This document shows, one piece after another, positions 8,249-50,778 of a DNA stretch of 64,000 nucleotides. The stretch comes from Methylophilaceae bacterium (GTDB taxonomy: Bacteria; Pseudomonadota; Gammaproteobacteria; Burkholderiales; Methylophilaceae). Within the stretch, counting starts at the first letter, position 1. Each line of letters begins with the position of its first letter. The stretch lies in NCBI GenBank assembly GCA_017858095.1, contig JAFMCB010000001.1, forward strand, positions 62,001 through 126,000, written 5' to 3'. The notes below the pieces were generated by a model. The model did not search any database. It saw only the letters and a list, made by a program, of their open reading frames with translations, and had not been told where the DNA came from. The position numbers and the translations under genes were made by a program.

Positions 8249-9532
8249 TTACGGATTAGATTGTATTACTTGTTGACCATTCATATAAGGCACCAAAGCA
8301 GTTGGTATATTGATAGTCCCTTCCTTTGTTTGATTATTTTCAATGATAGCTACAAGCGCTCTACCAACAGCCAACCCAGAGCCGTTTAAAGTATGAAGTA
8401 ATGTATTTTTTTTGTTTTCATCTTTAAACCTTGCCATCATGCGCCTTGCTTGAAACGATTCGCAGTTGGAGACGGATGAGATTTCACGATAAGTATTTTG
8501 CGATGGCAACCAAACCTCAAGATCATAGGTCTTTGCTGCACCAAATCCCATGTCACCAGTGCAAAGAGTTACCACACGATATGGCAAATCAAGTTTTGTA
8601 AGAATATTTTCTGCATGCCTTACCATCTCTTCAAGGGCCTCATAGGACTGATCAGGATGTGTAATTTGAACCATTTCAACTTTTTCAAATTGATGTTGAC
8701 GAATCATTCCACGGGTATCTTTTCCATATGACCCAGCCTCGGAACGAAAACATGGAGTTAAAGCTGTTAATTTAATTGGCAAATCATCAATATTTTGAAT
8801 TGAATCTCTTACAATATTTGTTAATGGCACTTCCCCAGTCGGTATTAAATAGAGTAAATCATTTTCCCCTCGCTTTGTGACAAATAAATCTTCTTCAAAC
8901 TTAGGCAGTTGCCCTGTGCCAATTAATGATTCTGGGTTTACTAAAAAAGGGGTATAGCATTCTTCATAACCGTGCTCATTAACCTGAACATCCAACATAA
9001 ATTGGCCTATTGCTCGGTGTAACCTGGCTATTTGACTGCGCATTAAAGTAAATCTTGAACCTGATAATTTTGTCCCCAAATCAAAATCTAGTCCATATTG
9101 CGATGCTACATCAACATGATCTTTTACCTCAAAATTAAAGGTTTTTTTCTTACCTATCTCCCTCACCACTACATTATCTTTTTCATTTCTCCCGAAAGGA
9201 ACTGAATCATGCGGTATATTAGGAATCTCCAAAAGGTAATTATTTAATTTTAGTTGAGTCTCATTAAGGCTTATTTCAAATTTTTTTAAATCTGCTGATA
9301 TGTCTGATACTTTAGCCATTAACTCATCAATATTTTTTCCTTGCGACTTTTCAACTCCAATATTCTTAGATAGTTGATTGCGCATCTCTTGTAATTCCTG
9401 GGTTTTAATTTGAAAACTTTTTCTATCTTTCTCAAGATTAATAAAAAATTTAGTATCAAATTCATAACCTCTTGATTTAAGTTTTTTAACAACTTCATCT
9501 AAGGTTTCTCTTAATAAATTTATATCAATCAT
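8249..9532 (-). CDS. serS: Seryl-tRNA synthetase
   Basis: Class II aaRS; N-terminal coiled coil; '[12 protein letters not shown]', '[26 protein letters not shown]', '[19 protein letters not shown]'. Confidence 0.98.
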
Positions 9533-10832
9533 GATCTTTACTTTCTTTTTTTCTTTCCAAATCTAATTTTTTAAGAAAATCTTTCTTTTCATTTATTTTC
9601 TTTTCCAAACCTCTGTCTGTTGGTTTGTAGAATTCTACAGGTTCAAGCTCATCAGGGAAATATTTTTCACCTGCAGCATAAGCATATGGTTCATTATGCG
9701 CATATCGATAATTTTTACCATAATTGAGATCATTCATTAATTGCGTTGGTGCATTTCGCAAATGCATTGGAACATCATAATGTCGTTGATCTTTTATGTA
9801 AGCCTTAACTTCATTGTAGGCGACATAAGCACTATTGCTTTTAGGTGCCATCGCTAGATAGATTATTGCGTTATTGAGTGCTAGCTCTCCCTCCGGAAAT
9901 CCTAACCTTTCATAAATTTGATAGGCCTCAAGCGCAATAGTTTGTGCTCTAGGGTCAGCTAATCCAATATCTTCAATTGCAATACGCACTATTCTTCTTG
10001 CTAAATATAATGGGTCAGCTCCCCCATCAAGCATTTTAAAAAGCCAATATATGGCAGCGTTAGGATCAGAACCTCTTACTGATTTGTGCAGTGCAGAAAT
10101 TTGATCATAAAACTGCTCGCCACCTTTATCAAAATTTCGTGATTTATTTGTAATAACTTTCTTAACGATTTCATCAGTTATTTTTGTTAAATTATCTGCA
10201 TCTAATCTCTGGAAAATAATTTCAATAATATTGATCAATCTGCGTGCATCACCGGATGCATATTCTAATAATATTTTTTTTGCCACATTATCAATCTGAA
10301 AATTAGCAAAATTTTCTAAAATACGTGAGACTAATAAATCAAGCTCCTCCTCAGATAATGCCTTGAGTGTAAAAATTTGGCACCTACTTAGGAGTGCTTT
10401 ATTTACCTCAAAAGATGGATTTTCAGTCGTTGCACCAATAAATGTCACCAGTCCTGACTCAATATGAGGTAAAAAAGCATCTTGTTGACTTTTATTAAAT
10501 CTATGAACCTCATCCACGAATAAAATAGTTTTCTTTTCTTGGTGCTCTAACAATATTTGTGCTCTTTCAACTGCCTCTCGAATTTCTTTTACTCCTGCCA
10601 AAACTGCCGATATTGCCATGAATTCATAATTGGATGACAGGGAAATTACATGCGCAAGAGTGGTTTTTCCAACACCTGGAGGTCCCCATAAAATCATGGA
10701 TGGTAAATTACCTGTTTCAATTGCTACCCTTAATGGTTGGCCAGCTCCAAGAATATGTTGTTGCCCAACGACCTCATCAAGAAGTTTTGGTCTTAATTTT
10801 TCTGCTAGTGGTGAATTTTGTTTGGGATCCAC
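9525..10832 (-). CDS. rarA: Replication-associated recombination protein RarA/MgsA (AAA ATPase)
   Basis: '[17 protein letters not shown]', '[15 protein letters not shown]', '[19 protein letters not shown]'; GTG start; conserved neighbourhood ftsK-lolA-rarA-serS. Confidence 0.96.
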
Positions 10833-11441
10833 TTAATTGCTTATGACATCTACGTCATCTGGTGTATTAAAAAGAAAAAAAGCGTCGTTGATAGGTGCAT
10901 TATTTTGAATTTTATTAAATTTAATCCTTGTGGTATTTTCAAAATTATCTAAAACAAGCATTTCTGAGAGTGTGTCTACTGTAAATAATATTTCTATACT
11001 TTTAAAGCTTGTAAGCTCGGTATTTTTAGGAATCGCTCTAAACCAAGTATTTTTATTTTTATCAAGTTTTTCTATAACAAAAAATTTCCTTGCTTTTTCA
11101 CTTACTAAAAGCATAGCTGGGCTCACTCCACCCAATTTACTAAGCGAACTCATAATGACTTGTTTTAACTCAGGGTCAAAGAGGTAAAGAAGTTCGCCAT
11201 CACTAATAATTTGGTTCGTAAAAGGCGCCTGGTAGTTCCACTTAAACATATTTGGCTTTTTAAAATAGAAGCTGCCCTCCACTTCTTGAATAATTTCGCC
11301 TTGATTATCTACTACCGTTTGTTGAAAATTTCCCTGGACAGTTTTCATTGAATCTACAATGTCAGAAAAACTACGTGAATCTTTTGCTAATGGAAGGGTA
11401 AAATATATTAACAAAAAAAAAGAAATTAAAAATCTACTCAT
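10833..11441 (-). CDS. lolA: Outer-membrane lipoprotein carrier protein LolA
   Basis: Start moved to the internal ATG ([19 protein letters not shown] signal peptide) rather than the longest ORF; '[40 protein letters not shown]' LolA core. Confidence 0.9.
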
Positions 11442-13731
11442 CTGATCCTGATGGGGAAATAATCTCTCGATTACCATTGCTTTGCATCGGTGAAACCAAT
11501 CCTGATTTTTCCATATCCTCAATAATTCGTGCTGCACGATTGTATCCAATTCTTAAATTTCTTTGAATGTATGAAATAGACGTTTTTTTAGTTTTTAGCA
11601 CGATAGCTACTGCTTCATCATACAAGGGATCCTTCTCACCATCGTTCACGCTGTCAGACCCTTCAGCAGCATTAAACTCATTTGGGTTTAGCACTTCCTC
11701 AAGATAGTGAGGCTCACCTTTTGCTTTTAAAAAATTAACCACTTTATGAACTTCTTCATCTGATACAAAAGCACCATGAATTCTATTTGGGTAACTGCTT
11801 CCTGAGCCCATGTACAACATATCACCTTTGCCTAACAAAGTTTCTGCGCCCATCTGATCAAGAATAGTTCTTGAATCTACTCTGCTGGAAACTTGAAATG
11901 CAATTCTCGAGGGTATGTTGGCTTTAATTAAGCCAGTTATAACATCGACTGATGGACGTTGTGTTGCTAACACTAAATGAATTCCAGATGCGCGTGCTTT
12001 TTGTGCTAAGCGCGCAATCAATTCTTCAACCTTCTTGCCAACTACCATCATTAAATCAGCCAATTCATCAATCACTATTAAAATTTGAGGCATTTCTTCG
12101 AGAATATCAGGGTTTTCAAGATCAAGAGAAAAAGGGTTTGTTAGTGGATTATTTTTTTCTATGGATTCATGTAGCTTTTGATTAAATCCAGTGATATTCC
12201 TTACACCAAAAGTAGACATTAATTTATAACGTCTTTCCATTTCAGCAACTGCCCAATTAAGTGCATGCCCTGCTTGTTTCATGTCAGTAACTACAGGAGC
12301 TAAAAGATGAGGAATTCCTTCGTACACAGAAAGTTCTAGCATCTTCGGGTCTACTAATATCATCTTTACTTGATTCGGTTTCGCTTTGTACAAAATACTG
12401 AGTACAAGCGCATTAATGGCTACAGATTTTCCAGAACCTGTCGTTCCAGCAATTAATAGGTGAGGCATTTTAGTAATATCTGCCACTTCAGGTTTGCCTG
12501 CAATATCTTTACCGAGAGCAAGAGTTAATAATGCCGATGTATCTGCAAAAACTTTTGAGCTCATTATTTCCGAAAGATAAACAACTTGTCTTGAAGAATT
12601 TGGTATTTCAAGGCCCATGCATGTTTTACCAGGAATAGTTTCAACAACGCGCACACTTATTACAGAAAGTGCCCGCGCTAAATCTTTTGATAAATTTGTA
12701 ACTTGACTTCCTTTTACCCCTGGCGCTGGCTCAAACTCATATCTTGTAATAACTGGACCAGGCTGCGCAGAAATAACTTTTGCCTCGATTCCAAAGTCAA
12801 GCAATTTTTTTTCAATTAATCGAGAGACAAATTCAATGGTTTCTGGTGATTGAGATTTAATTTGGTTAGGAGGCTGATCTAGTAAATGTAGTGGAGGTAA
12901 TTCAGCATCATTATCGCCAAACAAATTTGTTTGTTTTTCTTTGATAACCCGAATACTTTCTTTGATTTTATTTTTTGCTTCAATGATAGTAACTGGCGAT
13001 CTGTCTTCTAATTTTTTTCTTTCTAATTGAACAAACTCTGTTCGTTGCTGTTCAAATTTTTTTCCTTCACGCCTGTCTTGCCAATCAAGATATCTATTGT
13101 GCGTGTAATTAATTAAATTAAATAAAAAATTTCCAATGCCCTCTGAAATAGTGATCCATGACCATCCAGTAAACAAACTAAAACCAATTGCAAAGGCAAT
13201 GACAAGAAAAATTAAAGAACCTATATATCCAATTGTAGAATACAGACCCACATGAATAAGATGGCCTAAAAAACCACCTTGGCCGGCAGGAAATTGTGCA
13301 GAAATATTAATTACATGGCCAGCCTCTAGCGCTGCTGATGAAAGAATTAAAACAAAAAAGCCAAAATAATGAACGGCTAAAATATGTTTGGTATGATAAT
13401 CCGCATTTTCTATTCTTGGGTAAATAAGAAAAATGCTGTAAATACTGAGGAATACTAGCCACCACGCTGAAATGCCAAAAGCATAAAGAGTTAAATCAGA
13501 TAAATAGGCTCCTAGAATGCCTCCCATATTATGAATATTTATATTGTTTACTGCGTTTGACCATGATGGGTCAATTGGTGAATAGCTGCCAAGGGCTAAT
13601 GTAATATAAAGTCCCAAAAATAAAAGAACAAACCAAGTTGCCTCTCGAAAAATTCTATTAGCTAAAATTTTAGGGACTTGGTTATTAATTATTTTTTTCC
13701 CAATTTTTTTGGATCTTTTTTTTGCAAACAC
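11434..13731 (-). CDS. ftsK: DNA translocase FtsK
   Basis: 765 aa, N-terminal TM segments, '[21 protein letters not shown]', C-terminal gamma winged helix '[24 protein letters not shown]'; GTG start. Confidence 0.97.
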
Positions 13732-13822
13732 GTTAATTTACTTCATAGATAAGACAAGTAAATTATATCAGTATGTGAATGAAATAAATCTGCAATTAAT
13801 TTTTTAAAAAATAATTTTATAT

Positions 13823-15345
<1,523 letters not shown>

Positions 15346-39703: not shown

Positions 39704-40993
39704 CTAATTTAACTCTTCTACACGAATTTTAATTATTTTTTCTTTGTTGTCAGGTAAAGATTCGATTTCCTGGATTATCTCATTAATTTTTCTTTCTTCT
39801 ATTTTTGAGGTAATTAAAAATATATCAGGGTCTTTACTTTCATCCGAAATTTCTTTGTGAACCATTGCATCAATAGAGACATCGTTCTTAGCAAATATAT
39901 TAGTTATTTTTGCTAATAAACCTGCTTTATTGCTCATAGATAGACGCAAATAGAACTCTGATTTAACTTCTTCAATAGGTAAAATTTTCTTTGCACTAAT
40001 ATATTCATCAACAAAGCCGAGTGTAGGGATATTAAAGGTAGATCCTCTTGTGATGTCGATGATGTCTGCCACAACAGCACTGGCAGTTGCTTCAGCGCCT
40101 GCCCCGGCTCCATAATATAAGGTAGGGCCAACCATATTTCCTTTAACCAAAACAGCATTCATGGGACCATTTACATTGGCAACTAATCTTTTCTCAGGAA
40201 TTAAAGTAGGATGAACTCTTAATTCCACTCCATCAGAAACTAATTTTGTAATCGCTAATAATTTAATTCGATAGCCCAATTCCTCGGCATAGGTAATATC
40301 TTTTTGCGTCAACTGGGTAATGCCTTCAATATAGGCTGCATCAAAATTAATCGGTATTCCAAATGCCAATGAGGCTAATATTGTAATTTTGTGCGCTGCG
40401 TCAATTCCTTCTATATCAAATGTTGGGTCAGCCTCAGCAAACCCAAGTTCTTGTGCTTGTTTTAATGCCACGTTGAATGATAAATTATTCTCTTTCATTT
40501 CCGAAAGAATGTAATTTGTAGTGCCGTTAACTATCCCTGCAATCCACTCAATTTTATTTGCTGCCAATCCTTCACGAACTGCTTTAATAATGGGTATACC
40601 TCCAGCAACGGAGGCTTCATAAGCCAAAATAACATTATTTTTTTTTGCAAGCTTTACTAATTCTTCACCGTGCATCGCTATCAAAGCTTTGTTTGCTGTT
40701 ACAACATGCTTCTTATTTTCTAATGCCTGCTGCACAAATGTTCTAGAAATACCAACGCCTCCAATAAGCTCTATAACAATATCTACTTCATTGCTTTGGA
40801 TTAATTTTGTCGCGTCATCAGTAATGGTTACCGGGGCTTTAACAATATTTTTTGCGAGTGATAGATTTGTATCAGCCACCATCGTTATTTCAATTTTTTT
40901 TCCTGTTTTTTTAAAAATCTCTTCTGAATTTTCAGTAAGAATTTTGTAGGTACCTCCACCCACTGTTCCAATACCAATTAGTCCAACTCTCAT
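39704..40993 (-). CDS. hom: Homoserine dehydrogenase (with C-terminal ACT domain)
   Basis: 'GLIGIGTVGGGTYKIL', 'VTANKALIA', 'EASVAGGIPIIKAVREGLAANKIEWIAGIVNGTTNYIL', 'GFAEADPTFDIEGIDAAHK'. Confidence 0.97.
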   Translation of the reverse strand: MRVGLIGIGTVGGGTYKILTENSEEIFKKTGKKIEITMVADTNLSLAKNIVKAPVTITDDATKLIQSNEVDIVIELIGGVGISRTFVQQALENKKHVVTANKALIAMHGEELVKLAKKNNVILAYEASVAGGIPIIKAVREGLAANKIEWIAGIVNGTTNYILSEMKENNLSFNVALKQAQELGFAEADPTFDIEGIDAAHKITILASLAFGIPINFDAAYIEGITQLTQKDITYAEELGYRIKLLAITKLVSDGVELRVHPTLIPEKRLVANVNGPMNAVLVKGNMVGPTLYYGAGAGAEATASAVVADIIDITRGSTFNIPTLGFVDEYISAKKILPIEEVKSEFYLRLSMSNKAGLLAKITNIFAKNDVSIDAMVHKEISDESKDPDIFLITSKIEERKINEIIQEIESLPDNKEKIIKIRVEELN

Positions 40994-40999
40994 ATTTAA

Positions 41000-42217
41000 T
41001 TAATTCCTTCTTTTTTGGGCAAGATATTTATCTACTCTTTTTATAGCTTCTTTTAATTCATCTTCATTTGGTAGAAAAACAATCCGTAAATGATTATTAT
41101 CATCCCAATTAAAGCCAGAGCCTTGAACAACTAATACTTTTTGATCAATTAACAAATCTAAGATAAATTTTTGATCATCATCAATGGTATAGAGCTTTGG
41201 ATCAAGTTTTAAAAATAAATACATAGCAGCAAGAGGTTTCACGCAACTCACACCAGGTATTGATGTTAAGCCATCATAGGCTATTTCTCTTTGCTTAAAT
41301 AATCTTCCAGAAGGCGCAACCAAATCATTAATGCTTTGGTAACCTCCAAGCGCTGTTTGAATTGCCAACTGACCTGGTACATTGGCACAAAGTCGCATGG
41401 AAGCGAGCATATTTAACCCCTCCATGTAATCTTTTGCCTTATCCTTTGCGCCCGAGAATACTAACCATCCAGAACGATAACCACACGCACGATAATTTTT
41501 TGATAGGCCATTTAATGTGACAAACAGCACATCCTCTGCAAGTGAGGCAATTGACGTATGTTGATGCCTGTCATACAACACCTTGTCATAAATTTCATCT
41601 GCAAAAATAATAAGGTTATTTTGTCGAGCAATTTCAATAATTTCTTTTAATAGCTCATCTGAGTAAAGCGCACCAGTCGGATTGTTAGGGTTAATAACAA
41701 CAATGGCTTTTGTTTTGTCGGTGATTTTCGCTTTGATGTCATTAGGGTCAGGGAACCAATTAGCGCCCTCGTCACAGACATAATGTACTGGTTTTCCTCC
41801 AGCTAAAGTAACCGATGCTGTCCATAATGGGTAATCAGGTTTTGGTATTAAAACTTCATCATCATTATTGATCAGTCCCTGCATAACCATAACGATGAGC
41901 TCGGAAACTCCGTTACCAATAATGATATCGTCCACATCAACATTCTTGATAGATTTTTGTTGTGTGTAGTGCATAATCGCTTTTCGGGGTTCAAAAAACC
42001 CATGGCTCTCAGTATACCCAGAGGCTTTTGCCATGTTTCTTATAACATCTTGGGTGATCTCATCAGGCGCTTCAAAACCAAATGCAGCTGGATTGCCAAT
42101 ATTAAGCTTAATAATGCGATGGCCCTCTTCCTCCATCTTTTTAGCATGAGCAAGCACTGGGCCACGAATATCGTAACAAACATTATCTAATTTTTTGGAC
42201 TTTAGGACAGATTTCAA
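41000..42217 (-). CDS. alaA: Alanine-synthesizing aminotransferase (AlaA-like, PLP fold I)
   Basis: 'KSKKLDNVCYDIRGPVLAHAKKMEEEGHRIIKLNIGNPAAFGFEAPDEI', 'GLSKNYRACGYRSGWLVFSG'; resembles E. coli AlaA/YfbQ. Confidence 0.88.
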   Translation of the reverse strand: MKSVLKSKKLDNVCYDIRGPVLAHAKKMEEEGHRIIKLNIGNPAAFGFEAPDEITQDVIRNMAKASGYTESHGFFEPRKAIMHYTQQKSIKNVDVDDIIIGNGVSELIVMVMQGLINNDDEVLIPKPDYPLWTASVTLAGGKPVHYVCDEGANWFPDPNDIKAKITDKTKAIVVINPNNPTGALYSDELLKEIIEIARQNNLIIFADEIYDKVLYDRHQHTSIASLAEDVLFVTLNGLSKNYRACGYRSGWLVFSGAKDKAKDYMEGLNMLASMRLCANVPGQLAIQTALGGYQSINDLVAPSGRLFKQREIAYDGLTSIPGVSCVKPLAAMYLFLKLDPKLYTIDDDQKFILDLLIDQKVLVVQGSGFNWDDNNHLRIVFLPNEDELKEAIKRVDKYLAQKRRN

Positions 42218-42306
42218 AACGGTCGTTAATCAATGAGTTAAATTATGTGATATCTTACCTTTGTATTGACTTTAAGCCAATCCAAAGGCTAGAAAAAATT
42301 TGTATT

Positions 42307-42681
42307 ATGGAATTTAATGAAATACAGTCTTCAACGAGAAATCTTATAACTGCTTATGATAAAGATTACCTTTCTATTCATGATAAAAAAATTACTGAAA
42401 ACGTTTTAATATATCCAGAGACTATAAGTCTTATTTTAGATATCAAAACCATCCATGATATTAACGAATTGACGATACAAAAAGCGATTAACTTTAATCC
42501 CGAAATTATCCTTTTTGGTTTTAATAGTCCAAATCTTTTTTTATCCGCCAATCAAATTAAGATATTTCACGACCATAATATCGCTGTTGAAAGTATGAAT
42601 TTGATGTCCGCTTGTAGGACGTTTAATATTCTTTTATCAGAACAAAGAAAAGTGATTTTCTTTGCTTTTTTAAACCTATAA
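42307..42681 (+). CDS. Mth938-like domain protein (DUF498 family)
   Basis: Start moved to ATG 42307 (MEFNEIQ...); C-terminal '[31 protein letters not shown]' matches the family pattern 'GVEVMDT.AACRTYNIL..E.R.V'. Confidence 0.8.
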
Positions 42682-43905
42682 TTTCTTAGTTGAAAAAATT
42701 AAAGATGCATTCGTCCCACCAAAACCAAAGCTATTAGACATCACGGTAAATACTTTTTCATCATGTCGATGCGTCAGGATTGGTAAGCCCTCTGCGGCAG
42801 GGTCTAGCTCTTCAATATTCGCCGATGCTGCAAGAAACTCTTGATCCATCATAATGAGGCTGTATGCAGCTTCATTGGATCCTGCGGCACCCAACGCGTG
42901 TCCTGAAAGAGACTTTGTTGAGGCAATTGCAGGTATTTTTCCATACTTATTTGATGTAAAGACAGCTCTAATCGCTTCAAGCTCTTTTATGTCACCTACT
43001 GGTGTACTTGTTCCGTGCGTATTAATGTAATCTATTTGCTCTACCTTTGCTTCTTCTAATGCTAACGTCATACATCGTTGTGCACCCTCGCCGCTGGGTG
43101 CAACCATATCAAAGCCATCTGAAGTGGCGCCATAACCAATAACCTCGGCATATATTTTTGCTTTTCGATTAATCGCATGCTCGTATTCTTCTAAAACTAA
43201 AATACTTCCCCCGCCTGAAATAACAAAACCGTCACGATTTACATCAAATGTTCTAGATGCCTTTTCTGGATGATCATTATATTTCGATGACATAGCCCCC
43301 ATAGCATCAAATAAGTAACTCATAGTCCAATGTTCTTCTTCAGCACCACCTGCAAATATAATATCTTGCTTACCCATTTGAATTAATTCGTAAGCATTAC
43401 CAATACAATGTGCACTTGTTGAGCAAGCGGAACTAATGCCATAGTTAATGCCTTTAATTTTTGCCCCGGTAGCTAAGCAAGCAACAACCCCACTGGACAT
43501 GGTTTTCGTTACCATGTAAGGCCCTACGCGGCGTATACCTTTCTCACGCAAAGTATCTGTACCAGCTAACATGCTCTCCGTCGAAGTGCCGCCAGCGCCT
43601 ACAATAATTCCTGTTCGAATATTTGAAACCAATTCTTCAGGAAGACGTGCATCATCTATTGCTTCTTGCAAAGCGATCCATGCATAAGCATGTCCTTTTG
43701 CCATAAAACGTAATAGTTTTCGATCAATTAACTCTTCCACATTAATATTTACTGAACCCGCAACCTGACATCGCAAGCCATGCTCTTGATACTCAGGTTG
43801 AAATGTGATGCCTGATTTAGTTTCTCTTAGACTTGTGGCTACCTCTTTAGCATTGTTGCCTAAGCTTGAAACAATTCCTAAACCGGTTACTACGACTCTT
43901 TTCAC
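42676..43905 (-). CDS. fabB: Beta-ketoacyl-ACP synthase I
   Basis: '[15 protein letters not shown]', '[20 protein letters not shown]', '[14 protein letters not shown]', '[23 protein letters not shown]'. Confidence 0.96.
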
Positions 43906-43919
43906 AACTTTTCCTTTTT

Positions 43920-44435
43920 TTAAAAATTGTCTGTGCGGGTAAATAAACCTACTTTTAAATCTTCTGCTTGATAGATCGGGCGTCCATCAACCTGCATGGT
44001 TGCATCTGCTATTCCCATAACTAATTTGCGCATAATTACACGCTTCAAATCAATAATATAGGTGACTTTCTTTGCGGTGGGAAGTACTTGCCCAGTAAAT
44101 TTTACCTCATTACTTCCTAAAGCCCTGCCTCGACCAATACCACCTTTCCACGCAAGATAAAAACCTAATAATTGCCACATGGCATCCAATCCGAGGCATC
44201 CTGGCATAACAGGATCGCCCTCGAAGTGACAATCGAAAAACCAAAGGTCTTCCCTGATATCAAGTTCTGCAATCATTTGGCCATTATTATACTTACCACC
44301 ATCATCCGTAATAGAAACAATGCGATCAAACATTAACATGGGTGGTAATGGTAATTGCGCATTACCTTCACCAAAAAGTTCACCTCGACCGCAGGTAATT
44401 AACTCTTCTTTACTATAACTATTTTTTTTTGTCAT
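43920..44435 (-). CDS. fabA: 3-hydroxydecanoyl-ACP dehydratase/isomerase
   Basis: '[15 protein letters not shown]', '[55 protein letters not shown]'. Confidence 0.97.
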
Positions 44436-44534: not shown

Positions 44535-45551
44535 ATGAGCGACCAAAATCTGGCCGAATGGAGAAAACTTGCGCTCTCTTTAGAGGGCGAAGTAAATAAA
44601 GTTATCGTTGGGCAAAGTGAAGTAATTAGATTAATTACTACCTCAATTTTTGCACGGGGGCATGTATTACTTGAGGGGGATGTTGGTGTTGGTAAAACAA
44701 CCATACTTAAGGCCTTTGCCCGATGCATAGGTGGCGGCTATGAACGAATTGAGGGTACAATCGATTTAATGCCCAATGATCTTATCTACCATACCTATTT
44801 GGGTGATGATGGAAAGCCACATGTGGATAATGGTCCTATTCTCCGATCCGGTGAAGATCTCTCCATTTTTTTCTTTAATGAAATAAATCGAGCACGGCCT
44901 CAAGTACATTCGCTGTTACTTAGAATTATGGCTGAAAAAACTTTATCTGCTTTTAACAAAGAATATTCATTCCCACACTTGATTGTTTTTGCTGATCGAA
45001 ATCAAGTTGAAAAAGAAGAAACGTTTGAAATACCCTCAGCTGCAAGAGATCGATTCACCATGGAAATTCCAATTGGTATTCCAACAGATGATAAAATCAT
45101 GACCGATTTGGTCTTCGATACAAAATTTCACGATGCAGACAAGCTTATTGAAAAAGCAAAAAGTAACCTCTTGAAGTTTAATAAACTGAATCAAATATCC
45201 AATGACATACAAAACAACATTGACGCAACCAAAAAATTAGAAACTTATGCGCTTAATCTATGGAAAGCTTCCAGCCACCCTGAGTTATTTAATATTAAAA
45301 TCAGTGGTGTCGATACAGGTCGCCTGATCATTTCTGGCGCAAGTCCTCGTGGCATAAGTATGATGATGAAATGTGCTCGAGTGAATGCTTGGTTTAATAA
45401 TCGCTCATCCGTTTTGCCGGAAGACATCCATGCAATATTCCATGAAACGATTGCTCACCGTCTTGTTTTTAATCCAGTTTATGAATTAAGGCGAACAGAA
45501 ATTGCAAGAGAACTCACACATGAGATGTTAAATAAAGTCAGCGCACCCTGA
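44535..45551 (+). CDS. mxaR: MoxR-family AAA ATPase, methanol dehydrogenase maturation (MxaR-like)
   Basis: 'HVLLEGDVGVGKTTILKAFAR', 'FFFNEINRARPQVHSLLLRIMAE'; first gene of a six-gene R-S-A-C-K-L syntenic block. Confidence 0.9.
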   Translation: MSDQNLAEWRKLALSLEGEVNKVIVGQSEVIRLITTSIFARGHVLLEGDVGVGKTTILKAFARCIGGGYERIEGTIDLMPNDLIYHTYLGDDGKPHVDNGPILRSGEDLSIFFFNEINRARPQVHSLLLRIMAEKTLSAFNKEYSFPHLIVFADRNQVEKEETFEIPSAARDRFTMEIPIGIPTDDKIMTDLVFDTKFHDADKLIEKAKSNLLKFNKLNQISNDIQNNIDATKKLETYALNLWKASSHPELFNIKISGVDTGRLIISGASPRGISMMMKCARVNAWFNNRSSVLPEDIHAIFHETIAHRLVFNPVYELRRTEIARELTHEMLNKVSAP

Positions 45552-46411
45552 TGAAATATATTGCGGAAACTTTTGATTATCATATTAATTGGAAATCCAG
45601 AGGACACCACCCTGGCCAACACAAAAGTGACCAACGCGGAATGGGAATAGAATTTGCTGGGCACGCAACATTAATTGATTATCCAGACCCACGTCGAATA
45701 GATATTAGACAAACCATGCGTGATCCAATGGAGCAGATTCATGTTCGCATCTTTAATCAACGAAGTGCAACTCCTGTCTTTATTGCCAATGACTTATCAG
45801 CAAGTATGAATTTCGGTCTTACTCAAACAAAATTTAAACAAGCCTCAGACATATCTGAAATAATAAAAAATTCTGTTATTGGTAAAAGTGACGCTATTGG
45901 TTTTATTGGATTTAATGATCGTATTGATTCAAGCTGGATTGCGCCTCTCTCATATAGGCCACAAAGAACAGAAGCATTAATTGAAAGACTTGACCATTAC
46001 CATGCCAGAAATGCTAGTCATGAAGGTATTAAGGGTCTGTATCAATTTATTCCAAAAGATCAAACCTTAATCTTTATCATTTCTGATTTTCATATGCCAA
46101 TCTATGATATTGAGATATGCCTTGGACATTTAAGAAAGCATCGCATCATACCAATAATATTGTGGGATAAAAATGAGTATGAAAATTTACCCAGATTCGG
46201 CATCGTGTCTGTAAATGACCCAGAATCAGGAGAAGAATCGACACTATTCTTAAGAAAAAAAACGTTAGCAAAAATTAAAACGAGATTCGCTAACCGTAAA
46301 GAAGAATTAGAAAAAGTTTTTCTAAAATATGATTCGCCTCCTTTTTTTGTTGAGGATAAATTTGATACAACTGCGATGACACAATATTTTAATGAGTATT
46401 TCCATGCATAG
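45551..46411 (+). CDS. mxaS: MxaS-like DUF58 protein
   Basis: 'WKSRGHHPGQHKSDQRGMGIEFAGHATLIDYPDPRRIDIRQTMRDP', MIDAS-like 'NDLSASM'; position in mxa block. Confidence 0.88.
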   Translation: MKYIAETFDYHINWKSRGHHPGQHKSDQRGMGIEFAGHATLIDYPDPRRIDIRQTMRDPMEQIHVRIFNQRSATPVFIANDLSASMNFGLTQTKFKQASDISEIIKNSVIGKSDAIGFIGFNDRIDSSWIAPLSYRPQRTEALIERLDHYHARNASHEGIKGLYQFIPKDQTLIFIISDFHMPIYDIEICLGHLRKHRIIPIILWDKNEYENLPRFGIVSVNDPESGEESTLFLRKKTLAKIKTRFANRKEELEKVFLKYDSPPFFVEDKFDTTAMTQYFNEYFHA

Positions 46412-47393
46412 ATTCATTCAACTATGCATTTTAATTTTCTTTGTTCATTCACTATCAGCTTATGAAGATCCAAGAAAATATCCTGATATTGATCCCAGTT
46501 TTGCAACTGTCTCAGTGATTGATCCTGAACAAAAGGTTGGATATACAGTTGGGGATTTATTGGATCGAACAATTGTAGTTAAAGTAAAAAAACCCTATCA
46601 ATTAATTGAAGAGTCCTTACCGATTGTTGGTTATGAAAAACGCTATCGAGGCCAATTACTTGGTATGGATCTAAATAAAATATCTTTTATCAAGCAAGAT
46701 GATAAGAGAGAGAGTGTTCACACCATCCAGCTGCAATATCAAATATTCACAAATAATGTGGTTGCAAAACCAGCCTTTGTCACCGCTGATTATTATCGTA
46801 TTATGGATCCAGCCAAACCTGATGATGTCTTTAAGTTACGTATTCCGGAGCTCACAATTGCAATTTCACCTATTGCTATTTTTGGTGATATTAAAGTTGA
46901 AAACGATATGAGTGGTTACCGTGGCCCTATCCTTATTAATGCAGCACCTTATTTAAAAAATTTAAAAGTAGCGATATTTGTTTTACTTTTTTCTATTTTT
47001 ATTCTTATTTACATTTATAGTCGCTTCACGTGGGTACCCAAACAAAATAAATATTTTAGTTATGTCTATCGAAAATTTAAGAAAACTAAAGTATCACAAG
47101 ATAATCTAGAAGACCTGTTAAAAGCTTTGCATGATGGTTTTGATAAAACATTAAATCAAACTTTGTTTCTTGAAAATCTACATCAGCTCTATCAACAAAA
47201 TCGAGCATTTAAATATATTCATAATGAAATAGAAATATTTTTTCAAATTTCACGTGGTGTATTTTTTGAAAAAAATAAAAAAATTGATAATGAGACGATC
47301 TATGATTGGTTAAAACAATTTGCTCTACATTGTAGAATGTGTGAGCGAAAACTGATTGTGGATTCCAATGATCTAGTTAAGCTTAAAATTTAA
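46404..47393 (+). CDS. mxaA: MxaA-like methanol dehydrogenase maturation protein
   Basis: Signal peptide, periplasmic domain, single TM, cytoplasmic tail; position in mxa block. Alternative start at 46392. Confidence 0.83.
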   Translation: MHRFIQLCILIFFVHSLSAYEDPRKYPDIDPSFATVSVIDPEQKVGYTVGDLLDRTIVVKVKKPYQLIEESLPIVGYEKRYRGQLLGMDLNKISFIKQDDKRESVHTIQLQYQIFTNNVVAKPAFVTADYYRIMDPAKPDDVFKLRIPELTIAISPIAIFGDIKVENDMSGYRGPILINAAPYLKNLKVAIFVLLFSIFILIYIYSRFTWVPKQNKYFSYVYRKFKKTKVSQDNLEDLLKALHDGFDKTLNQTLFLENLHQLYQQNRAFKYIHNEIEIFFQISRGVFFEKNKKIDNETIYDWLKQFALHCRMCERKLIVDSNDLVKLKI

Positions 47394-48367
47394 TGAATTT
47401 TACTTATCCGATATTCCTTTTTTTGATTCCTTTTGCGCTCGTTCCTATCTTGTTAGCAAATCCAAATAAAAATCACTACTCATGGAATGAAATGCTACCC
47501 ATTGATTCACTGTCACGAGTCATTGGTTTTTTACTAAAAGTGCTAAGTTCGTTAATAATACTATTAATTATCTTGGTACTTAGTCAACCAACTTCAGACC
47601 AACGTGTTGTTGAAAAAATTGGAGAAGGGGCACAGATTGGGTTAGTTTTAGATCGCAGCGCCTCTATGGATGACCCTTTTTCCGGTAGTAATGATAAGGC
47701 AGGAGAGACGAAATCTGGTGCTGCTAGTCGATTAATTATAAATTTTTTTGAAGCAAGAACTAATGATATGGTTGGTGTTATTACCTTTAGTAATTCTGCA
47801 ATGTATGTATTACCTTTAACACAAAATAAAGAGGCCATTAAAGCTGCTGTGAATGCTACTGCAGGAAATGCTCTTTTTCAAACAAATATTGGTGCTGGTC
47901 TAACGAGTAGCGCAGCCTTATTCTCTGGAATAGCTGATACGGGTTCTCGTGCCATTATATTGTTATCCGATGGCGCAGGTAGAATTGATGCCCCTACGCA
48001 ACAAAAAATAAAAGACTGGTTTAATCGTTTTCAAATTGGTTTGTATTGGATTGTTCTTCGACAACCAGGTGGTATCAGTATATTTGATGAAAATTTTGTT
48101 CCGAGAGATGATGATCAACTTCCACCTCAAATAGAACTTTATGAATATTTTAAAACGTTTAAATCACCTTTTAAAGCATATGAAGCTGAAGATCCAAAAT
48201 CTTTAGAGCTTGCCATTCAAGATATTAGTTTGAAAGAAAAAAAACCGATTACTTATACGGAGCGTTTACCAGGTAAAAATTATTCTTTAATCTTATTAAT
48301 CTTTGCGCTTGTACTTGCGTCTCTTCTTTTATGTTTAAAAATACTTGAGGTAAAATCGTTTAAATGA
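47393..48367 (+). CDS. mxaC: MxaC-like VWA-domain membrane protein
   Basis: MIDAS 'LVLDRSASMDDPF', TM helices at both ends; position in mxa block. Confidence 0.88.
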   Translation: MNFTYPIFLFLIPFALVPILLANPNKNHYSWNEMLPIDSLSRVIGFLLKVLSSLIILLIILVLSQPTSDQRVVEKIGEGAQIGLVLDRSASMDDPFSGSNDKAGETKSGAASRLIINFFEARTNDMVGVITFSNSAMYVLPLTQNKEAIKAAVNATAGNALFQTNIGAGLTSSAALFSGIADTGSRAIILLSDGAGRIDAPTQQKIKDWFNRFQIGLYWIVLRQPGGISIFDENFVPRDDDQLPPQIELYEYFKTFKSPFKAYEAEDPKSLELAIQDISLKEKKPITYTERLPGKNYSLILLIFALVLASLLLCLKILEVKSFK

Positions 48368-48912
48368 AACCTATCAATTTAATTTCAGTTAAAAAAATTA
48401 CTTATTTTTCTTATTTAGTTATCATTTTTTGTGGATTTTTTATAATTTCCTCTAGTTATAATCTTTATAAGATTAATAGTTTTAACGAAAGCATTTCTGC
48501 TGGTGATACCTCAAGCTACTTTAAACAAAGTTTTGAATCAAGGTTTTCTATTGCCTATTGGTTGGCAAATGAAGGCATGTTTAAAGAAGCGACCATATTA
48601 TTTAATCAACTTCTCGATGAGGCTGATGATAATCAAAAGTCAGCAATACAATACAATATTGGAAATATTTTCTTTAAAAGAGGGTTAGAAATTAATGGCT
48701 CAAATATGAGTGTTAGGGATGAAGCAGAATATCTATTCAGGCAAGCAAAGAAAGCATACGTTCAATCGCTAAAAGCTAATCATCAATATTGGGATGCAAA
48801 ACATAATTTAGACCGTTTATTAACAATGTTACCACCAGACCCTACTCCAGGAGTTGGTGATTCCGATTCACCAGGACTTATTATGGGTAATATACCTGTT
48901 GGTCTGCCGTGA
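48364..48912 (+). CDS. mxaK: MxaK-like TPR-type protein
   Basis: TM anchor, TPR-like 'AIQYNIGNIFFKRGLE...YVQSLKANHQYWDAKHNLDRLLTMLPPDP'; position between mxaC and mxaL. Confidence 0.83.
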   Translation: MKPINLISVKKITYFSYLVIIFCGFFIISSSYNLYKINSFNESISAGDTSSYFKQSFESRFSIAYWLANEGMFKEATILFNQLLDEADDNQKSAIQYNIGNIFFKRGLEINGSNMSVRDEAEYLFRQAKKAYVQSLKANHQYWDAKHNLDRLLTMLPPDPTPGVGDSDSPGLIMGNIPVGLP

Positions 48913-49874
48913 TGAGTTTCTACGAAAAATTAAAAGAAGATATTAATTTTCTTTTTTTATTCCTTGCAGTTATTTTCTTAGTTATTGCAATTATTAATCC
49001 AAGCATTCCAATAACTAAAAATATCTATAATTATATTTTTATTGTTGATATATCTCAGAGCATGAATACCGAAGATATGACAATCAATAATAAAAAAGTC
49101 TCAAGAATGGAATACTCGAAAAATCTTCTCCATAGAATGCTCGAAAGATTACCTTGTAAAACGAAAGTAAGTGTTGGAATGTTTGCTGGAGTAAGTATCG
49201 CAGCAGCCTACACACCAATTGAGGTATGTGATAACTTCAGTTCAATTAATAGCACCATTGAAAATCTTGATTGGCGTTCAACATGGTCCGGAAATACTCG
49301 TATCAGAGAATCAATGGTAAATTTGGCACGATTAATTCGAAGTTTTCCTGAGTCGGCACAAGTTGTTTTCCTGACGGATGGTGAAGAAGCACCAAAACTT
49401 CATGTATTTAACACAAGGGATTTAAGTCAATTTCAAGGAGGGCAAGATTGGTTATTTGTAGGTATTGGTTCAGATGAAGGCGCCCCTATACCTAAGTATG
49501 ATAATAAAAATCAACTTATTGGTTATTGGTCAAATGAAAGTTTTGCTCTGCAACCAGGTATTGCACAAATTTCAGAATCTAATCTTGGAACCCGTGACAA
49601 TAAAATTGCATCGAGTGTTAGTGATCGTTATTTATCCAAACTTGATGAGGAGTATTTAAAAAATCTCTCAAGTGAAGTAAAGGGTATTTATGTAAAAGGC
49701 GATAGCCCGGACAATATTCTTAAGATGATGGAAAAACAAAAACCAGCATGGCGTGATCAATCCGCTTACCCGCTTCGGTATATTTTTGCTTTTGCGGCTT
49801 TAGTATTATTTCTTTTACGATTTATTACTATGGAAAAATTATTACAAGTGATTCGAGTAAAAAAACATGCTTAG
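48909..49874 (+). CDS. mxaL: MxaL-like VWA-domain membrane protein
   Basis: MIDAS 'FIVDISQSMNTEDM', 'VVFLTDGEEAP'; last gene of mxa block. Confidence 0.87.
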   Translation: MMSFYEKLKEDINFLFLFLAVIFLVIAIINPSIPITKNIYNYIFIVDISQSMNTEDMTINNKKVSRMEYSKNLLHRMLERLPCKTKVSVGMFAGVSIAAAYTPIEVCDNFSSINSTIENLDWRSTWSGNTRIRESMVNLARLIRSFPESAQVVFLTDGEEAPKLHVFNTRDLSQFQGGQDWLFVGIGSDEGAPIPKYDNKNQLIGYWSNESFALQPGIAQISESNLGTRDNKIASSVSDRYLSKLDEEYLKNLSSEVKGIYVKGDSPDNILKMMEKQKPAWRDQSAYPLRYIFAFAALVLFLLRFITMEKLLQVIRVKKHA

Positions 49875-50778
49875 TTCACTAATTTTTTTTAATCTAAAAG
49901 ATCACTATAGCCTCATACAAGTCAGTGGAGATGATGCAAATTCCTTTCTGCAAGGTCAGCTCACGAATGATATTAATTTAGCTAGCGAAAATAAGTTAAT
50001 ACTGAGTGGATTTTGTAATCCCAAAGGTCGATTGCTTGCAATATTTCAGATAGCAAAAATAAACAATATTTTTTATCTTATTTGCCCAAAAACGATTGCT
50101 GAAACAGTCTGCAAAAAACTATCGATGTATATCTTGAGATCGAAAGTAAAAATAGATATTAATCCAGAGACCATTGCGTTGCATGGTTTTATTATTAGCT
50201 CACAACAGCTGTTAACAGATTTTTTTAAAAATTTTCCAAATACAAACTTTGCTGCTCAACAAGATAATATGAATCTTCTCATCAAACTTCCGGGCTATCC
50301 TGAGCGATATATGGTTATCTGTTCAGGGCAAACTTCATCAGACATGATGATAAAATTTAAAGAAAATTCTGGCAAAATTGACGAATGGAAGTTGCATGAT
50401 ATTGAAGCAGGTATTCCAAGTATTTACCCTAATACACAAGAGGTTTTTATTCCTCAATCACTTAACTTAGATCTTTTGCAAGCTGTTAATTTTAAAAAGG
50501 GTTGCTACACTGGCCAAGAAATAATCGCACGCACCCATTATCTTGGTAAAGTAAAACGCCGGATGTATCGTGCAGCCATAAAAATATCTTCGCTAATCAA
50601 TATTGGTGATGATCTCTATGTAAATGATTTGATAGTTGGTAAGGTGATTGATTTCGCGAAAGAAAAAAATAGCTTTAAATGTTTAATTGAATTAATTGTT
50701 GAGGAAAAAGATAAGCAACTTACTCTGAATGGTAGTAATGTAAATATTAGTGGTTTAGCTCAAGAAAATCCGAATTAA
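49867..50778 (+). CDS. ygfZ: YgfZ/GcvT-like folate-binding protein (Fe-S cluster assembly/repair)
   Basis: 'LIQVSGDDANSFLQGQLTNDI', 'LSGFCNPKGRLLAIFQI', signature 'KKGCYTGQEIIARTHYLGKVKRRMY'. Confidence 0.94.
   Translation: MLSSLIFFNLKDHYSLIQVSGDDANSFLQGQLTNDINLASENKLILSGFCNPKGRLLAIFQIAKINNIFYLICPKTIAETVCKKLSMYILRSKVKIDINPETIALHGFIISSQQLLTDFFKNFPNTNFAAQQDNMNLLIKLPGYPERYMVICSGQTSSDMMIKFKENSGKIDEWKLHDIEAGIPSIYPNTQEVFIPQSLNLDLLQAVNFKKGCYTGQEIIARTHYLGKVKRRMYRAAIKISSLINIGDDLYVNDLIVGKVIDFAKEKNSFKCLIELIVEEKDKQLTLNGSNVNISGLAQENPN

Follow-up and report, generated by a model that had tools for sequence, protein, structure and literature searches.

A conserved mxaRSACKL gene block of Methylophilaceae that tracks XoxF and points to this methanol dehydrogenase as its probable client

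In a 64,000-nucleotide stretch of a Methylophilaceae draft genome (assembly GCA_017858095.1; the whole stretch is hereafter the window), six genes at positions 44535-49874 form an mxaRSACKL block, the accessory set of the classic methanol dehydrogenase operon mxaFJGIRSACKLD. Sequence comparisons lead us to propose that XoxF, and not MxaFI, is probably the main client of this block in the Methylophilaceae. XoxF is the likely client because the block co-occurs with it across the order, is linked to xoxF-xoxJ in several lineages of other families that lack MxaI, and is kept by four complete relatives in which XoxF is the only pyrroloquinoline quinone dehydrogenase.

The open reading frame (ORF) list of the window places all six genes on the plus strand, with overlaps of 1-20 bases between neighbours. 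VWA motifs are given as metal ion-dependent adhesion site (MIDAS) sequences, and TM denotes transmembrane.

44535..45551, plus strand: mxaR, MoxR-type AAA+ ATPase of 338 residues, Walker A GDVGVGKT, Walker B FFFNEIN
45551..46411, plus strand: mxaS, DUF58 protein of 286 residues without a TM segment, MIDAS-like DLSAS, SDFH motif
46392..47393, plus strand: mxaA, signal helix, immunoglobulin (Ig)-like beta-sandwich (about 38-158), one TM helix (185-210), helical C-terminal domain
47393..48367, plus strand: mxaC, VWA protein with TM segments at both termini, MIDAS DRSAS (BatA-like)
48364..48912, plus strand: mxaK, single TM segment at the N-terminus, weak match of TPR/BatC type
48909..49874, plus strand: mxaL, VWA protein, two TM segments, MIDAS DISQS (BatB-like)

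By BLAST, the six proteins pair one-to-one with those of mxaRSACKL in the Methylobacillus flagellatus mxaFJGIRSACKLD operon (L040/L083), so that the reading of the earlier note, six packed genes in the order mxaR-S-A-C-K-L, holds gene by gene. The same order is found again in dozens of genomes, which excludes a chance arrangement. Pfam assigns AAA_3 and its lid to MxaR, DUF58 to MxaS and VWA_2 to both MxaC and MxaL, and matched no family to MxaA or MxaK. The Walker A/B and VWA MIDAS motifs are intact, as in nearly all blocks compared. An Rfam scan of the window returned no RNA family, and promoter and terminator scans gave sites no more frequent than in shuffled sequence. The flanks are also as that note described: divergent fabA-fabB lie upstream and ygfZ downstream, and blocks of this kind are called fab-linked below.

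The host genome is a 1.15 Mb draft in 44 contigs, 88.9% complete. As the earlier note had remarked, mxaF, mxaJ, mxaG and mxaI are absent from the 64-kb window. The note's question of mxaFI versus xoxF in the whole genome has a clear answer, since mxaFI is not detectable and the sole methanol dehydrogenase is a xoxF truncated by a contig end (G000:C18:16094-17515), the block itself lying on contig C32. The encoded motif DEWDYDG carries the lanthanide-site aspartate, whereas MxaF of Methylophilaceae reads DEWDFAG. MxaI (PF02315) was found neither in this 88.9% complete genome nor in 30 others of its Genome Taxonomy Database (GTDB) genus, six of them single-contig, and the same search was positive in G031 and G032 of the Methylophilaceae. 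With no MxaI, and no calcium-type MxaF upstream or elsewhere in the genome, the block is not part of a classic mxaFJGIRSACKLD operon. We also notice a 580-residue lipoprotein-like homolog of pyrroloquinoline quinone (PQQ) dehydrogenases, about 30% identical to MxaF/XoxF (L005:6137-7876, on G000:C30). It is present in the host genome and several relatives and absent from the complete genomes G001, G003, G006 and G016.

The association with XoxF was followed in 300 genomes drawn evenly from the order and covering 139 genera. Mxa-type MxaR occurs in 23 of them and XoxF in 35; MxaI occurs in 5, every one of them from the Methylophilaceae. Of the 23 genomes with mxa-type MxaR, 22 also have XoxF and only 5 MxaI; the one without XoxF, G037, holds a XoxF-like fragment of 102 residues. 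Counted by genus, all 16 block genera are among the 20 XoxF genera of the 139 (Fisher p=1.3e-17, with genera not fully independent). The block is present in ten family codes, and every one of these includes XoxF genomes. Likewise, XoxF is present in every searched single-contig genome with the block.

Within the family the pattern sharpens. MxaA of the fab-linked block is found in 14/14 genus relatives that are at least 90% complete, and MxaI is missing in 24 of the 29 named fab-linked genomes. The XoxF-only genomes of 1.3-1.4 Mb hold a single MxaR copy, which is fab-linked and 77-79% identical to that of the window. The five genomes of the order sample that have MxaI each carry a further MxaR copy, 50-56% identical, next to MxaI; no such mxaFI-linked copy is seen away from MxaI. 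The complete genomes G001, G003, G006 and G016 possess the block and only two proteins of the PQQ_2 fold, BamB and XoxF. A client of the PQQ dehydrogenase type could therefore only be XoxF in these bacteria.

In several genomes outside the Methylophilaceae, the block and xoxF are found side by side. In the Rhodocyclaceae-like L121 and L148, the genes convergent with mxaRSACKL are an mxaD homolog, a propeller gene, xoxJ and xoxF. In L147 (Rhodocyclaceae), mxaRSACKL is followed by one reversed gene, xoxF, a cytochrome gene and xoxJ, and in L142 (Variovorax) the block is divergent from xoxF-xoxJ. These four genomes encode no MxaI, and their XoxF has the lanthanide-type motif D[YF]DG. Thus, the suggestion of the earlier note that the block serves a different client is well supported for XoxF by co-occurrence and linkage in the sequences; the situation is not peculiar to this genome. 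As a separate observation, the mxaD homolog (33% identity) and the beta-propeller gene lie within the xoxF-xoxJ cluster that faces mxaRSACKL (L148:13405-15973, and L121), and because both genomes lack MxaI, MxaD may also have a XoxF-side role.

Regarding its descent, the block belongs by sequence phylogeny to the true mxa lineage, which bears out the earlier note in preferring mxa to a generic MoxR-DUF58-VWA cluster. MxaR of the window shares 53-80% identity with the family's mxa-type MxaR and at most 34% with generic MoxR of the same genomes, and in the MxaR tree the generic proteins lie beyond long, fully supported branches. A tree built on MxaR+S+C+L of 60 blocks unites the fab-linked ones in a single clade (support 99 in the Shimodaira-Hasegawa-like approximate likelihood ratio test, SH-aLRT), apart from the mxaFI-linked clade of Methylophilaceae. 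Its sister is a second orphan block of the same family (L037, L039, L042, L046). M. flagellatus (G032) carries all three kinds, mxaFI-linked, fab-linked and second orphan. Since the fab-linked blocks have their own clade and the three kinds coexist in one bacterium, we consider the window block an old paralog rather than a classic operon cut short.

Several observations on related blocks were made along the way. The second orphan paralog (L037:5830-11110, L039:8661-14108, L042:7838-13145, L046:4659-9884) is kept in few streamlined genomes, and a TetR-type regulator gene is close by in L037 and L042. On a contig labelled as a Methyloversatilis universalis metagenome-assembled genome (MAG), L105, the mxa block is sister to that of Methylocaldum (SH-aLRT 99-100); this contig is probably misbinned. 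Plasmid p3 of Caballeronia sp. Lep1P3 (L184) carries an orphan mxaRSACKL at 9207-14410 among heavy-metal efflux and arsenic genes, and a search limited to the plasmid found no XoxF. At the C-terminus of MxaA, most fab-linked blocks share a conserved CxxCE(R) tail (alignment columns 401-420), whose cysteines are missing in mxaFI-linked MxaA (L040). Judging from the alignment, this tail could possibly be a paralog-specific contact.

A number of points weigh against XoxF as the client. Thirteen XoxF genomes of the order sample, for example G059, have no block, and so XoxF does not need it everywhere. The block does not adjoin xoxF in the Methylophilaceae. Five block-bearing draft MAGs (G034, G079, G080, G088, G092) yielded no XoxF at E<=1e-40 and show weak PQQ dehydrogenase matches at most, or none; another, G033, shows a XoxF fragment only. 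We think that contig breaks account for most block-bearing MAGs without XoxF, as xoxF is frequently broken by contig ends (G000, G072, G074, G090, G108); G034, however, is rated 99% complete. From the literature, a 2024 review (PMC11845868, citing Keltjens 2014) says that XoxF has no need of mxaACKLD and mxaRSEH, and in M. extorquens lanthanum lowers mxaRSACKL transcripts together with those of mxaFI (PMC6414531). Both statements concern alphaproteobacteria and the classic operon, whereas the present data concern Burkholderiales with separate copies.

Could the block instead belong to the general MoxR-VWA (Bat-like) chaperones of the envelope, with a main client that is no PQQ dehydrogenase and a co-occurrence with XoxF that reflects a methylotrophic lifestyle? 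Bat and other MoxR-DUF58-VWA clusters likewise combine MoxR and DUF58 with a pair of VWA membrane proteins and one TPR protein, and the block has weak NCBIfam BatA/BatB/BatC matches, which at 23-53 bits are below the curated cut-offs of 175-380. The functioning of XoxF without the block in some genomes and the separation of block and xoxF in Methylophilaceae would also fit such a chaperone. Yet MxaR is 50-80% identical inside the mxa lineage, against at most 34% to generic MoxR behind a long separating branch, MxaA has no Pfam family, the block is restricted to XoxF genera, and in other lineages it is physically linked to xoxF-xoxJ. We regard this explanation as unlikely; a generic MoxR cluster as such is ruled out by the identity gap and the tree. 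It is more unlikely still that some other member of the Xox chain (the XoxG cytochrome or XoxJ), or the 580-residue PQQ enzyme of G000:C30, is served by the block in place of XoxF. The occurrence of that enzyme in the host and several relatives speaks for it, whereas the four complete genomes keep the block without the enzyme, by which it is ruled out as the sole client.

Two further explanations concern the missing mxaFJGI genes. If a classic mxaFJGIRSACKL operon had lost mxaFJGI and left the block as a relic, this would explain a gene order equal to the second half of that operon. M. flagellatus nevertheless has the fab-linked copy and, apart from it, a classic one; the fab-linked blocks form their own clade, all 14 nearly complete genus relatives retain the block in a lineage that streamlines its genome, and the motifs are intact. 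The tree and the coexistence of both copies rule out the relic, which we hold to be very improbable. Least credible of all is that mxaFJGI is present and was missed, as might be thought from an 88.9% complete genome with a contig ending inside xoxF: MxaI is absent from all 31 genus genomes, including the six single-contig ones, and was detected elsewhere in the family, so that missed mxaFI is ruled out at the genus level.

How the block would act on XoxF can be sketched from its predicted proteins. TM segments are absent from MxaR and MxaS and present in MxaC, MxaL, MxaK and MxaA. The AlphaFold2 model of MxaA (mean predicted local distance difference test, pLDDT, 87.5; predicted template modelling score, pTM, 0.57) comprises an N-terminal helix, an Ig-like sandwich at 38-158, a TM helix at 185-210 and a helical C-terminal domain. 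A fold search against the PDB gave generic Ig-like matches only, none with E below 0.001, and a sequence search against the PDB gave chance matches only. Because a signal helix lies in front, the sandwich would be periplasmic, as XoxF is, and the helical domain would face the ATPase. In the model, this topology would suit a transmission element.

We propose that the cytosolic MoxR AAA+ ATPase MxaR, together with the soluble VWA-like adaptor MxaS, drives a putative membrane complex of MxaK, MxaA and the two proteins with VWA domains on TM segments, MxaC and MxaL. MxaA would contribute its periplasmic Ig-like domain, single TM helix and cytosolic helical domain. An ATP-driven movement passed across the membrane would open or remodel periplasmic apo-XoxF, and the opening would allow the active site to be completed with the lanthanide and perhaps PQQ; XoxJ may be a periplasmic partner of the process. 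A precedent is NorQ-NorD, in which a MoxR hexamer twists its VWA partner and thereby permits metal insertion, here FeB into nitric oxide reductase (PMC13036017). The likeness is in mechanism only, as NorQ-NorD consists of two proteins and has another client and another metal. The step served on XoxF we infer to be metal insertion, PQQ insertion or folding; lanthanide insertion specifically is a tentative choice among these, and one we lean slightly away from.

The chromosomal neighbourhood of the block in the window is as follows.

39704..40993, minus strand: hom, homoserine dehydrogenase, conserved locus flank
41000..42217, minus strand: aspC, aspartate/alanine aminotransferase-like, conserved locus flank
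42247..42681, plus strand: DUF498-like gene, named by eye from sequence, part of the ancestral locus hom-aspC-DUF498
42676..43905, minus strand: fabB, upstream of the block with fabA
43920..44435, minus strand: fabA, divergent conserved neighbour of mxaR across 99 bp of intergenic DNA
49867..50778, plus strand: ygfZ, overlapping mxaL, conserved downstream neighbour

Among fab-clade loci with enough upstream sequence, divergent fabA adjoins mxaR in 36 of 40, and ygfZ lies downstream of the block in 33 of 36. Two of the four exceptions, L156 and L158, are without fabAB and have the aminotransferase and DUF498-like genes directly upstream, with hom also in L156. The window has the same genes at the flank of fabB. 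In L122, where the contig begins close upstream of the block, the same DUF498-like gene is found. As L156, L158 and L122 retain these neighbours, the ancestral locus can be reconstructed as hom-aspC-DUF498-[fabB-fabA]-mxaRSACKL-ygfZ. The fab-linked block is inherited vertically across the Methylophilaceae at one fixed locus. Beck et al. 2014 (PMC4109929) described the location of additional mxa clusters in this family as not strictly conserved, which, given the fixed family-wide locus, fails for the fab-linked copy. The overlap of mxaL and ygfZ measures 8 bp (window 49867-49874); the two genes are a few bases apart in other members of the genus and 30-1171 bp apart in most of the remaining Methylophilaceae. 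Genome compaction probably made this coupling.

The classic operon of Methylobacillus, Methylocystis and Methylobacterium has the same six genes in the same order with the same domains and motifs, and its MxaR is 53-54% identical to that of the window. The window block differs in having no adjoining mxaFJGI or mxaD and no MxaI in its genome, in forming a separate clade with its own conserved locus, and in coexisting with the classic copy in some relatives. For the classic system, the role of MxaACKL is calcium insertion into MxaFI (PMC6028718). The framing of the earlier note needs one correction, since a block without mxaFJGI is not special to this genome. Already in 2014, MxaRSACKL was listed with XoxFJG as core to the Methylophilaceae, including strains JLW8 and 301 without mxaFJGI (PMC4109929). 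The accessory clusters of Beck et al. are the same thing at the family level; here, one copy is found to have a fixed family-wide locus and to track XoxF. Pelagic forms have XoxF4-1 only (PMC6794327), and Sphaerotilus has mxa gene fragments without MxaFI, with XoxF5 present (PMC13300288). In the part of the literature covered, we found no earlier mention that the locus is fixed, that retention is paralog-specific or that the association with XoxF spans the order; these points, the paralog split included, are apparently new. That XoxF-only bacteria keep the block suggests, contrary to the 2024 review (PMC11845868), that these helpers also mature XoxF.

If the present proposal is true, a dedicated AAA+/VWA machine would contribute to the assembly of a lanthanide enzyme in aquatic methylotrophs of high abundance, among which the OM43 strain NB0046 has xoxF as its most abundant transcript (PMC5120137). 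The paralog split makes the idea testable, as the same cultivated bacteria would have one copy for the calcium enzyme and another for the rare-earth enzyme. In its broadest form, which we judge nearly but not quite evenly balanced, mxaRSACKL would be an ATP-driven XoxF maturation machine in the Burkholderiales, possibly in a role older than that for MxaFI, and the maturation of PQQ methanol dehydrogenases would thus be metal-flexible and paralog-specific.

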